A DNA stretch of 64,000 bases from Hyphomicrobiales bacterium (lineage in GTDB: Bacteria; Pseudomonadota; Alphaproteobacteria; Rhizobiales; Rhizobiaceae). The position numbers and the translations under genes are program-made. The DNA is taken from the NCBI GenBank assembly GCA_900469625.1, contig UBXV01000007.1:186001-250000 (forward strand). The letters are read 5' to 3'. Below are positions 3,265-7,675 of the stretch, in pieces (the stretch's first letter is position 1; the number at the start of each line of letters is the position of its first letter). Below the pieces are notes generated by a model that was not told where the DNA came from, searched no databases, and saw only the letters and a program-made list of their open reading frames with translations.

Positions 3265-3429
3265 TCACGTTCTACGCATCAGACCTGCGACCAGCGAAAT
3301 CACCAGGAAGGCAAGGAACAGGAAGAACAGGATCTGTGCGATGCCGGCAGAGGCACCAGCAATACCGCCGAAACCAAGTACACCGGCAATGATGGCCACT
3401 ACCAGAAAGACGAGAGCGTAGTAAAGCAT
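3265..3429 (-). CDS. DUF1328 / UPF0391 small membrane protein
   Basis: A 54-aa protein with two hydrophobic helices, opening [20 protein letters not shown] and ending LVAGLMRRT. This matches the DUF1328 (YtjA-like) family in length and pattern. AAGGAG precedes the ATG at a good distance. About 35 bases further upstream is a candidate EcfG promoter (3463-3488), so expression during general stress is likely. The molecular function of the family is not known. Confidence 0.88.
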
Positions 3430-3462: not shown

Positions 3463-3488
3463 AACGTCGCGGCCCGCTATTTTGTTCC
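3463..3488 (-). promoter_or_regulatory. Candidate EcfG/RpoE2 promoter for the DUF1328 gene
   Basis: On the minus strand GGAAC (3488-3484), 17 bases, then CGTT (3466-3463). This matches the alphaproteobacterial general-stress sigma consensus GGAAC-N16/17-CGTT. Confidence 0.75.
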
Positions 3489-3604: not shown

Positions 3605-3629
3605 GGAACCTTCGAGATAGTCCTACGTT
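3605..3629 (+). promoter_or_regulatory. Candidate EcfG/RpoE2 promoter for the NepR-like gene
   Basis: GGAAC (3605-3609), 16 bases, CGTT (3626-3629), placed 30 bases before the ATG at 3659. Confidence 0.75.
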
Positions 3630-3658: not shown

Positions 3659-3853
3659 ATGAAGATGCCAATGTCACATATCTGGAAGTCCGCAGCGGAA
3701 ACAGCGCGCCGAAAAGCTGAATTGCCGGACGCTAATCTTCACATCGGCAGGACGATGCGCGATCTCTACGCACCCAACCTGGAAAAACCGAGCAACGACC
3801 TGAACACACTTCTCGAAAAACTGAAAAAAACCGAGCCGAAGTCGGGAAATTAG
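3659..3853 (+). CDS. Small NepR-like protein (possible second anti-sigma factor)
   Basis: A 64-aa charged, helical protein. Residues 29-48 read IGRTMRDLYAPNLEKPSNDL, followed by LLEKL at 51-55. The bona fide NepR of this window (5066-5284) has IGSKLKALY at 28-36, P43, D46, L47 and LLQKL at 51-55. The I-G, L-Y, P, D and L positions therefore keep exact spacing, with one residue missing before the final LL..KL. NepR proteins bind the sigma factor EcfG and are sequestered by phosphorylated PhyR. The gene has its own candidate EcfG promoter. The homology is my reading of a short motif, so treat the function as a hypothesis. The ATG at 3659 was chosen; in-frame ATGs at 3665 and 3671 are possible. 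Confidence 0.6.
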   Translation: MKMPMSHIWKSAAETARRKAELPDANLHIGRTMRDLYAPNLEKPSNDLNTLLEKLKKTEPKSGN

Positions 3854-3979: not shown

Positions 3980-4303
3980 TCAATTGCTCAGCTTCGGCGT
4001 GTCATTGGCGCGCGCTGCAACGGCGTAGCTGCCGTCGTCGGCAATCACCTTGACCTCGAGCTGACGTGCGGGCGTGATGCGCCATTCGATGGTGGCATCC
4101 TCGACGAACAGAGCCGGATCGACTTCGGCGCATTTGCCGTAGGCGCCCTTGAAGGCCTTGCCAACCTCTTCGATCGAGGGCGAAAGCAGTTCCTGGCATT
4201 CCTCGACGGTCTCGAAGCCGACGACGGGCGTCGGCACTTCGCGGCAGGCGGCATCGCCCTGCAGGCACCCGACGAGGACCATGATGGCAGCGATATGTTC
4301 CAT
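3980..4303 (-). CDS. Small periplasmic protein, function unknown
   Basis: A 107-aa protein with a short hydrophobic N-terminus (MEHIAAIMVLVGCLQGDAAC) that looks like an export signal. Further cysteines follow in the mature part (within EECQELL and GKCAEV). I do not recognise the family. The ATG at 4303 was preferred over the ATG at 4309 because AAGGAG lies 7 bases before 4303 but only 1 base before 4309. A candidate EcfG promoter at 4338-4363 suggests expression in the general stress response. Confidence 0.7.
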   Translation of the reverse strand: MEHIAAIMVLVGCLQGDAACREVPTPVVGFETVEECQELLSPSIEEVGKAFKGAYGKCAEVDPALFVEDATIEWRITPARQLEVKVIADDGSYAVAARANDTPKLSN

Positions 4304-4337
4304 ACGCATGCTCCTTCCATCAAAAACTTCATGAGCA

Positions 4338-4363
4338 AACGGTTATGGACGGCCCGAGGTTCC
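4338..4363 (-). promoter_or_regulatory. Candidate EcfG/RpoE2 promoter for the periplasmic protein gene
   Basis: On the minus strand GGAAC (4363-4359), 17 bases, CGTT (4341-4338), 35 bases upstream of the chosen start. Confidence 0.75.
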
Positions 4364-4468: not shown

Positions 4469-4493
4469 GGAACAAATCGGCGTGATCGTCGTT
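4469..4493 (+). promoter_or_regulatory. Candidate EcfG/RpoE2 promoter for the lipoprotein unit
   Basis: GGAAC (4469-4473), 16 bases, CGTT (4490-4493), reading towards the small reading frame and lipoprotein gene at 4554-5005. Confidence 0.75.
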
Positions 4494-4553
4494 TCCAGTG
4501 CAATAACAAGCGCCGCGCCCGCGGCGATACCACAAGGGAGACGCTGATGAGCG

Positions 4554-4760
4554 GTGCAGATCCGCCCGTTGCGAAACGTCCAGGGATCATCAAGATCGTC
4601 CAGAAGCCCGGATCAGGGCTGGAACCCGTCATGGCTACAGGTTTTGGCGCGCGACCTCATTATCGTCACTCTGTTCGTCCTCAGTGCCCCGCAACCGGTC
4701 TCGGCCGAATGCATCCTTCAATGCTCAACCAAGCAAACCTCGGATAGGAACGCGTCATGA
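4554..4760 (+). CDS. Possible small exported peptide upstream of lipoprotein
   Basis: A reading frame that may start at GTG 4554, or internally at TTG 4647. It contains a signal-peptide-like stretch, DLIIVTLFVLSAPQPVSA, followed by the short tail ECILQCSTKQTSDRNAS. Its TGA stop overlaps the ATG of the lipoprotein gene (ATGA at 4757-4760), an arrangement typical of translational coupling. A ribosome-binding-like AAGGGAG lies at 4535-4541, and an ATG at 4548 in another frame competes for it. The start is unsettled and the peptide may not be real. Confidence 0.35.
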   Translation: MQIRPLRNVQGSSRSSRSPDQGWNPSWLQVLARDLIIVTLFVLSAPQPVSAECILQCSTKQTSDRNAS

Positions 4761-5005
4761 AGAAAATACTGATCATAGCAAGCCTGGTCCTCCCGCTCGC
4801 GGCCTGCACGCAAACGGAAAAGGGCGCGGCGATCGGCGCGGGCAGCGGGGCCGTCATCGGCGGCCTGGCGACGGGCAATGTCAGAGGTGCTGCAGTGGGT
4901 GCTGCGGTCGGCGGTGTGGCCGGCGCGCTGATCGGCAACGCCAACGAACCTGGCCGCTGCATCTATCGCGACCGCTACGGCCGCCGCTACGAAGCCGCCT
5001 GCTAA
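4757..5005 (+). CDS. Glycine-zipper outer-membrane lipoprotein
   Basis: An 82-aa lipoprotein. It has a signal peptide with lipobox LPLAAC (Cys at residue 17), then GAAIGAGSGAVIGG and GAAVGAAVGGVAGALIG repeats typical of Gly-zipper motifs, and a short tail RCIYRDRYGRRYEAAC. It resembles 17-kDa-antigen/YMGG-type proteins, which sit in the cell envelope. AGGAACGCGTC precedes the ATG. It lies downstream of a candidate EcfG promoter and overlaps a possible small exported peptide by ATGA. Confidence 0.85.
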   Translation: MKKILIIASLVLPLAACTQTEKGAAIGAGSGAVIGGLATGNVRGAAVGAAVGGVAGALIGNANEPGRCIYRDRYGRRYEAAC

Positions 5006-5065: not shown

Positions 5066-5284
5066 CTAGGGTTTGCTGCGAACCTTGTCGTCGGGACGGG
5101 AGAGCGACTCAGCCTCGTCCAGTTTTTGCAGAAGATCGATGAAAAGGTCGGGCACCGGTTCCTGCTCGAGCGCGCGATAGAGCGCCTTCAGCTTCGAACC
5201 GATCAATCCGTTCGGATCGGACGCTTCGGCCGCCTTTCGGCGCTCCTCATCCCCCACGCCACGCTCGTCCACAGGATCTTTCAT
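5066..5284 (-). CDS. nepR: NepR-family anti-sigma factor (general stress response)
   Basis: A 72-aa protein with the NepR core: NGLIGSKLKALYRALEQEP (about residues 25-43), then VPDLFIDLLQKLDEAE. NepR binds the ECF sigma factor EcfG (RpoE2 in Sinorhizobium) and releases it when phosphorylated PhyR takes NepR away by mimicking the sigma factor. The ATG at 5284 was chosen because upstream residues do not fit the family. It is divergent from phyR with 164 bases between, the usual pairing, though no ecfG gene is in the window. It probably corresponds to E. meliloti RsiA2 (from memory). Confidence 0.9.
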   Translation of the reverse strand: MKDPVDERGVGDEERRKAAEASDPNGLIGSKLKALYRALEQEPVPDLFIDLLQKLDEAESLSRPDDKVRSKP

Positions 5285-5448: not shown

Positions 5449-6249
5449 ATGTCACTTTCGACGCGTATTGCACCACATCTTCCCTTTCTGCGCCGTTACT
5501 CCCGCGCCGTCACCGGCTCGCAGGCTGCCGGCGACGGTTACGTGGCCGCGGTTCTGGAAGCGTTGATCGAGGACATCAGCCTCTTTCCGGAGAGTTCCAA
5601 CGATCGGATCTCCCTCTACAAACTTTTCTGCACCCTGTTCGAGAAGGTCTCCGTCGACCGGACCGGCAATGTTTCTCCCTTTGCCTGGGAGCAGCAGGCT
5701 GCCGCCAATCTGTCGCTGATTGCGCCGGCCGCCCGCCAGGCCTTCCTTCTCGTCTCGGTCGAGGGCTTCTCGATCGCCGATGCCGCCGAGATCATGGGCC
5801 AGAGCCAGGCGGGCTTTTCCAAGCTGCTGACGGCCGCTTCGGAAGACATTTCGCGCCAGGTCGCAACCGAAGTGCTGATCATCGAGGATGAACCGCTGAT
5901 CGCGCTCGACATCGAGGATATGGTCACCAGCCTCGGCCATCGTGTGACCGGCATCGCCCGCACCCACAAGGAAGCGCTCGATCTCTACCGCAAGACGGCG
6001 CCGAAGATGGTGCTTGCCGACATTCAGCTCGCCGATGGCAGCTCCGGTATCGACGCGGTGAACGAGATCCTGAAGGATGCGGCCGTGCCGGTGATCTTCA
6101 TCACAGCCTTTCCAGAGCGCCTGCTGACCGGAAAGAGGCCCGAGCCCGCCTTCCTCGTCACCAAGCCGTTCAATCCGGACATGGTCAAGGCGCTGATCAG
6201 CCAGGCGCTATTCTTCGACGAGCACGCCCGCTCCTCGACGCGCAGGTAA
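5449..6249 (+). CDS. phyR: PhyR-type response regulator (sigma-like domain plus receiver)
   Basis: 266 aa. Residues 1-135 are a sigma-70-like region opening MSLSTRIAPHLPFLRRYSRA. Residues 142-260 are a receiver with acidic pocket IIEDE (146-148), phosphoacceptor D191 in VLADIQLADG, and the PhyR-specific FITAFPERLLTGKRPEPAFL and TKPF segments. When phosphorylated, the sigma-like domain binds NepR and frees the stress sigma factor. AAGGA 8 bases before the ATG at 5449 decides the start; the 28 extra codons upstream do not fit. It probably corresponds to E. meliloti RsiB2 (from memory). The cognate HWE kinase is not in the window. Confidence 0.93.
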   Translation: MSLSTRIAPHLPFLRRYSRAVTGSQAAGDGYVAAVLEALIEDISLFPESSNDRISLYKLFCTLFEKVSVDRTGNVSPFAWEQQAAANLSLIAPAARQAFLLVSVEGFSIADAAEIMGQSQAGFSKLLTAASEDISRQVATEVLIIEDEPLIALDIEDMVTSLGHRVTGIARTHKEALDLYRKTAPKMVLADIQLADGSSGIDAVNEILKDAAVPVIFITAFPERLLTGKRPEPAFLVTKPFNPDMVKALISQALFFDEHARSSTRR

Positions 6250-7446: not shown

Positions 7447-7617
7447 TCAGTGCCGCTCGGGCGGGAACACGTGAAGGGTCAGCGACAGGAGCGCGAGGCC
7501 AAGCGCGATCACCAGCAGCGTGTGCGCCACGCCGGCGGCCGTGTGGGGCACCAATCCGAACCCGATCAACAGGCCTGCGAATGCGAGCGCGCAGGCGCGC
7601 GGTAGCCAATAGAGCAT
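7447..7617 (-). CDS. Small two-helix membrane protein, unknown function
   Basis: A 56-aa protein with two hydrophobic segments (CALAFAGLLIGFGLV and HTLLVIALGLALLSLTL). The start at ATG 7617 follows GGGAGG with 6 bases spacing. It resembles other short stress-induced membrane proteins in length only, and I cannot assign a family. It lies 44 bases before the AI-2E permease gene, with a candidate EcfG promoter upstream (7651-7675). Confidence 0.72.
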   Translation of the reverse strand: MLYWLPRACALAFAGLLIGFGLVPHTAAGVAHTLLVIALGLALLSLTLHVFPPERH

Positions 7618-7650
7618 CGATTGCCTCCCATTTTGATGGAACCTCAGGTA

Positions 7651-7675
7651 AACGCGGCGGCCAGCCGTTGGTTCC
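7651..7675 (-). promoter_or_regulatory. Candidate EcfG/RpoE2 promoter for the small membrane protein/AI-2E unit
   Basis: On the minus strand GGAAC (7675-7671), 16 bases, CGTT (7654-7651), 33 bases before the ATG at 7617. Confidence 0.75.

Follow-up and report, generated by a model that had tools for sequence, protein, structure and literature searches.

A 64-residue NepR-related protein with a predicted EcfG-type promoter in the nepR2–phyR2 island of Rhizobiaceae

Stress-induced NepR paralogues that act as brakes have been reported in two bacteria, Sphingomonas melonis and Methylobacterium (PMC6599016, PMC4814048). In S. melonis, deletion of NepR2 is reported to raise the response and its overexpression to lower it; the protein co-precipitates PhyR, its residues L31 and F35 matter, as L32 and Y36 of S. 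melonis NepR do for activity, and a lack of EcfG binding is no more than hinted at by two-hybrid data that the authors do not show (PMC6599016). M. extorquens MexAM1_META2p0735 (hereafter META2p0735) is described as co-precipitating PhyR, with no EcfG interaction found in that report, as having an EcfG-dependent, stress-induced promoter, and as a negative regulator when overexpressed (PMC4814048). The stress switch of Sinorhizobium meliloti has been described as comprising two anti-sigma factors and two PhyRs (PMC4814048, PMC3616915, PMC6180224); RpoE2 binding is reported for both of its known NepRs (PMC4814048), and rsiA2 is reported not to be RpoE2-dependent (PMC4814048, PMC3616915). An unannotated RsiA-like ORF has also been noted opposite SMb21687, near rpoE5, in this species (PMC6180224).

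Here we analyse a short gene of the NepR kind in a 64,000-nucleotide stretch of DNA (hereafter referred to as the window) from a Rhizobiaceae bacterium whose genome comprises 6.54 Mb. The ORF at positions 3659–3853 on the forward strand, described in an earlier note on this DNA and confirmed here, encodes 64 amino acids. Orthologues are found in all 16 genomes of its genus, and close orthologues, with 82–85% identity, in five named genomes of Ensifer/Sinorhizobium, the nearest named relatives as regards this gene. Across 37 pairwise comparisons, the dN/dS of the gene is 0.05–0.33 and the third codon positions are the most changeable in every pair, and none of the 29 strong matches to the family contains an internal stop. 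Since orthologues exist and dN/dS is low, we rejected a chance ORF or non-coding stretch, and on these comparative grounds the ORF is a real gene, for whose products we use the working name IWKS family (3659–3853, forward strand; defined by orthologues, dN/dS and profile comparison).

The gene is embedded in an island of stress-related genes. The canonical NepR of the island (nepR2, rsiA2-like; 5066–5284, reverse strand; 72 residues from the ATG; PF18557, 47 bits, E 1.9e-12) is encoded divergently from PhyR (phyR2, rsiB2-like; 5449–6249, forward strand), in which Pfam identifies a sigma-like domain and a receiver. The other neighbours are a DUF1328 peptide (3265–3429, reverse strand; Pfam), with an EcfG-type box starting at 3488 on the same strand, a 109-residue protein with no Pfam family at E 0.01 (3980–4309, reverse strand), with EcfG-type boxes starting at 4363 and 4450 on the same strand, and a glycine-zipper protein that is a conserved neighbour in the island (4757–5005, forward strand). 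The gene order recurring across genera is oxidoreductase, (UPF0114), (DUF1328), family gene, (109-residue gene), glycine zipper, nepR2 and phyR2, the bracketed genes being missing from some stretches. In all 14 fetched islands a nepR gene lies within about 6 kb of the family gene, and phyR falls inside the stretch in 13 of the 14. The genome of the window has two true NepRs above the Pfam cut-off, that at 5066–5284 and another on contig C33 directly before an EcfG-like sigma gene, as in the rsiA1–rpoE2 arrangement. The 64-residue protein, which the earlier note had counted as the second NepR-like protein, is therefore the third NepR-type protein of this genome.

Two further stretches of the island carry EcfG-type boxes. 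At 4469–4750 (forward strand), a box at 4469 is followed by no clear gene, and the stretch may contain a short ORF that has decayed or is unrelated. In four of six islands that lack the family gene, a short peptide follows a box that stands before the glycine-zipper gene; it belongs to DUF3309 in the one tested, and the other three look alike. At 7447–7675 (reverse strand), a 57-residue peptide has a weak, below-cut-off DUF350 match and an EcfG-type box in eight of the eight islands where it was found.

The relationship of the 64-residue protein to NepR is visible in sequence profiles only. The protein alone has no NepR match in Pfam (E up to 10) or NCBIfam, so that the search with the NepR profile proposed in the earlier note, the failure of which, coupled with a lack of binding, was to count against the assignment, returned nothing for this sequence, and BLASTP gives no significant match to NepR2 (E 0.094). 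The curated cut-off of PF18557 (25.7 bits) is not reached, and only 5 of 15 family members match this model weakly (best E 0.029). By contrast, hhalign pairs the family profile (A2, 26 members; one row, L076, short by six residues and others by a few C-terminal residues) with a profile of 24 NepRs (A3) over 50 columns that include both core helices (96.1%, E 3.1e-9). The 24 NepRs score 4.8 to 30.0 bits against the family profile, with a mean of 22.2 bits, compared with means of −1.1 bits for permuted profiles and 1.9 bits for the reversed profile, and the maximum NepR score among 200 column-permuted copies is 7.9 bits. Seven of these NepRs were collected through the family's own matches; among the 17 collected independently, 15 lie above this permutation maximum, the remaining two scoring 6.6 and 4.8 bits.

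A smaller profile (A1) was aligned from 15 rows, namely five named Ensifer/Sinorhizobium loci and the best ten matches (E up to 0.022, window included) of a search that gave some match at E up to 10 in 73 of 151 genomes. Run against 16 genus genomes, A1 places the family gene at the top in every one and the best-ranked true NepR directly below it, the latter with E values of 4.2e-5 to 4.5e-4 and at the same places as those found by PF18557. Against 177,635 PDB sequences, A1 retrieves the solved NepR chains 5uxx (E 0.011) and 4qic (E 0.016), just above which, through weak repeated stretches, stand two sequences of Tako8, a designed repeat protein (E 0.0075 and 0.0077); the 64-residue sequence alone finds a single PDB match, a designed protein, at E 6.8. 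A relationship to UBact (PF20513) was rejected, since the match was confined to 1 of 15 members and fell below threshold (12.5 bits, E 0.13; cut-off 27.8 bits). A tree sets the family apart from NepR (99/98); because it rests on only 69 columns, the N terminus among them, it was not used to name a parent NepR. The orthologues in related species retain the motif, the absence of which there had been put forward as grounds against the assignment, and NepR ancestry is well supported by the profile comparisons.

The conserved positions divide the protein into an N-terminal segment and a NepR-like core. The segment, residues 7–20 (3677–3718, forward strand; alignment and model), is a low-confidence predicted helix with an I-W-K-[ST] motif, in which I8, W9 and K10 are kept in 24, 23 and 25 of 26 members, respectively, nearly the level of the core; this N terminus is absent from the NepRs inspected. 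The core comprises two predicted NepR-like helices, placed by hhalign and the model, residues 23–41 (NLHIGRTMRDLY; 3725–3781, forward strand) and residues 46–58 (L..LLEKL; 3794–3832, forward strand). The earlier note had read a NepR-like P..D-L pattern and a residue deleted before LL.KL. The letters of the pattern are present, but its conservation is not: five of the 26 members have P44, and none of the 26 shows, at the hhalign-paired position, the proline (P45 of NepR2) that is invariant across 24 of 24 NepRs. The profile alignment places the gap elsewhere, between the two helices. Because it lies below the Pfam NepR threshold and lacks the invariant proline, the 64-residue protein is best termed a NepR-related variant.

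Two core positions, M33, which is M or L throughout the 26 members, and Y37, kept in 22 of them, correspond to L31 and F35 of S. melonis NepR2, a match drawn from a pattern common to both, L-[RK]-x-x-[YF], rather than from the S. melonis sequences; Y37 is replaced in four members and also, by Q, in S. meliloti. The predicted model of the 64-residue protein, with helices at 7–20, 23–41 and 46–58, is weak (pLDDT 63.5), as is that of NepR2, with helices at 10–22, 26–41 and 45–62 (pLDDT 65.6). Since both weak models have a helix before the core, the extra helix is no distinguishing mark, and their agreement on a two-helix core is too weak to build on.

An EcfG-type box, GGAAC-N17-GTT, lies at 3605–3629 on the forward strand, 54 bases before the ATG and at a conserved position. 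All 29 of the family genes have such a box upstream, which supports the earlier suggestion that the gene has its own EcfG promoter; in the form GGAAC-N17/18-GTT, it precedes the start by 51–59 bases in 28 of them and by 94 bases in the remaining one. The EcfG target consensus reported for Sphingopyxis, GGAAC-N16-CGTT (PMC7083833), has a spacing equal to N17-GTT. Across the genome, the pattern by itself shows no enrichment (214 occurrences, versus 221 for the backwards control), and we therefore rejected judging the promoter from a single occurrence and took as evidence the conserved position in 29 genomes; the frequency of the pattern in the island loci is about 0.04 per 150-base stretch. Across 16 islands, in which the starts of neighbouring genes were extrapolated from tblastn and are approximate, the box precedes every one of the 15 family genes, the 15 DUF1328 genes, the 10 genes for the 109-residue protein and the 8 small genes corresponding to that at 7447, compared with one each of the 16 nepR2 and 16 glycine-zipper genes and none of the 15 phyR2 or 16 oxidoreductase genes; the divergent family copy at locus L137 was missed in this count but is included among the 29. 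EcfG-type control of the 64-residue protein is thus predicted, and this prediction is well supported by the position of the box.

Strong matches to the family (E below 1e-17) occur in 17 of 247 sampled Rhizobiaceae genomes from seven genera, six of them besides the genus of the window; the best E value of any other genome in this sample is 3.9e-6, and the weaker matches include true NepRs. No strong match beyond the window gene itself was obtained in the 199 order-level and 289 class-level genomes sampled, with the qualification that these searches scored the best first-look candidates of each genome and may have missed some. The matches at E 0.001 or better in the order and class samples, the window gene aside, begin at profile position 14 or later, and the non-Rhizobiaceae matches inspected (loci L141–L159 and L163) are NepR-like and lack the I-W-K motif. 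Among the 247 Rhizobiaceae genomes, the family gene is present in 17 of the 30 with two NepRs versus 0 of the 217 others (Fisher P = 1.6e-18, a value that overstates the case because it counts related genomes as independent). Thirteen of the 30 two-NepR genomes lack the gene, and in all six of these that were inspected the island is present without it, which marks the gene as accessory.

The gene also occurs in S. meliloti. Five Sinorhizobium records of a plasmid collection carry it, two of them from S. meliloti. In strain Ak57, the product has 64 residues, and the gene, preceded at 56 bases by a GGAAC-N18-GTT box, lies between the DUF1328 and glycine-zipper genes near an annotated rsiB2. The Ak57 record shows no CDS there, in a collection whose gene tables are known to be incomplete; the USDA1021 record encodes an identical protein, and its table has zero genes across the stretch. 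In CP090106.1 (locus L160, 6813–7001), the gene at the rsiA2 position is listed as 'hypothetical protein', its neighbour being named rsiB2. The rsiB2 locus, chromosomal by its SMc tag in strain 1021, was found in the pSymB-titled records CP090106.1 and NZ_CP021802.1, one of which is 3.7 Mb long, and the two records may be mislabelled or rearranged. We found no description of the 64-residue protein in the open-licence literature, including the available text on S. meliloti (PMC3616915, PMC6180224, PMC10117765) and Rhizobium etli (PMC3892343, PMC3188799); it may nonetheless figure among the small ORFs without a name in published listings.

A comparison with the S. meliloti system shows how the protein differs from its established NepRs. 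RsiA1 and RsiA2 are canonical NepRs, and their counterparts in the genome of the window exceed the Pfam NepR cut-off and have the invariant proline, whereas the 64-residue protein is of the NepR kind and has neither. The gene at the rsiA2 position is a separate one in the same island, about 0.6 kb (Ak57) to 1.2 kb (window) from the 64-residue gene. The ORF opposite SMb21687, likewise an overlooked NepR-like ORF of S. meliloti, lies at another place, beside rpoE5, and is described as strikingly rsiA1-like (PMC6180224). In the genome of the window, a second ECF-type sigma gene (contig C35, 192804–193537; loci L005 and L178), 35% identical to the EcfG-like one, is followed about 190 bases downstream by a weak NepR-profile match (E 2.26), which could be either the counterpart of the RsiA-like ORF beside rpoE5 or a chance match.

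The protein also resembles the brakes of the two other lineages. S. melonis Fr1 NepR2 (#1448) is reported to be, like the 64-residue protein, small and inconclusive in BLAST, with NepR-like residues, membership, here predicted, of the EcfG regulon and a place beside GSR genes (PMC6599016). Two marks of that NepR2 kind recur here, a predicted EcfG-type promoter in each of the 29 family genes and the hydrophobic and aromatic residues, by pattern, at M33 and Y37. Moreover, the spacing of the helices seems to be one residue shorter than in NepR in both cases (L31–M46 versus L32–M48 in S. melonis, and M33–L48 versus L32–F48 in the window). The two are likened by description rather than by sequence, and they differ in location, S. 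melonis NepR2 adjoining ecfG and the 64-residue gene lying in the nepR2–phyR2 island. META2p0735, also likened by description, shares the features of a NepR paralogue with an EcfG-type promoter and belongs to another lineage and locus.

The PhyR-facing residues M33 and Y37, the kind of promoter and the shorter helix spacing lead us to favour a stress-induced antagonist of PhyR. Under this model, as described in the literature for other proteins, stress would lead to the phosphorylation of PhyR, which would pull NepR off EcfG. The general stress sigma factor EcfG (RpoE2) would then transcribe the 64-residue gene from the GGAAC-N17-GTT box, as its sequence suggests, and, by analogy, the two NepR-like helices of the product would occupy PhyR at its sigma-like domain, the neighbouring PhyR being the likeliest target. 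Freed NepR could then rebind EcfG, and the response would be limited or switched off, as S. melonis NepR2 and META2p0735 suggest. We regard it as probable, if only just, that the protein is such an EcfG-induced NepR mimic, and negative feedback appears to be its likeliest role. The linkage to nepR2 and phyR2 and the occurrence solely in two-NepR genomes of the sample speak for this reading; the lost NepR proline, the replacement of Y37 in some members, the two NepRs below the permutation maximum and the accessory status of the gene weigh against it. The earlier interpretation is upheld in so far as sequence supports NepR ancestry and EcfG-type control; its label of an extra anti-sigma factor goes further than the evidence reaches.

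The main alternative is that the protein is indeed a direct, third anti-sigma factor, which would bind EcfG (RpoE2) and sequester it upon stress beside NepR1 and NepR2. Profile comparison places both NepR core helices in the protein, and the reported binding of RpoE2 by both known S. meliloti NepRs (PMC4814048) accords with such a role. However, the two EcfG-controlled paralogues described above are reported to bind PhyR, EcfG binding being either not found or hinted to be absent, and the NepR proline has been lost in 26 of 26 members, so that we consider this reading unlikely. Somewhat less likely again is a NepR-derived regulator that uses its I-W-K-[ST] segment to address another target, such as a kinase, another ECF sigma factor or a membrane protein. 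The segment approaches the core in conservation and was not seen in the NepRs inspected, and candidate targets exist, the genome containing 12 further EcfG matches (E 1e-5 or better) of at most 35% identity, as for other ECF-type sigma genes; against this stand the linkage to nepR2 in every fetched island and the retention of the PhyR-facing positions by most members. A NepR duplicate that has lost its function and is in decay, to which the absence of the gene from 13 of 30 two-NepR genomes might point, is very improbable given the low dN/dS, the 29 strong matches free of internal stops and the box preserved in all 29.

A narrower form of the preferred PhyR antagonist can be envisaged, in which the family would consist of Rhizobiaceae-specific, stress-induced NepR mimics dedicated to RsiB2, an N-terminal contact absent from NepR allowing one of the two PhyR inputs, and not the entire response, to be switched off selectively; we hold this to be possible, though doubtful. 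If the proposed role in negative feedback is true, it would add a feedback arm, at the rsiA2–rsiB2 locus, to the model of two anti-sigma factors and two PhyRs in S. meliloti. It would also make the Rhizobiaceae the third lineage to use a stress-induced paralogue of NepR as a brake, which would suggest that this arrangement is commoner than is known and has been overlooked because the genes are so short.
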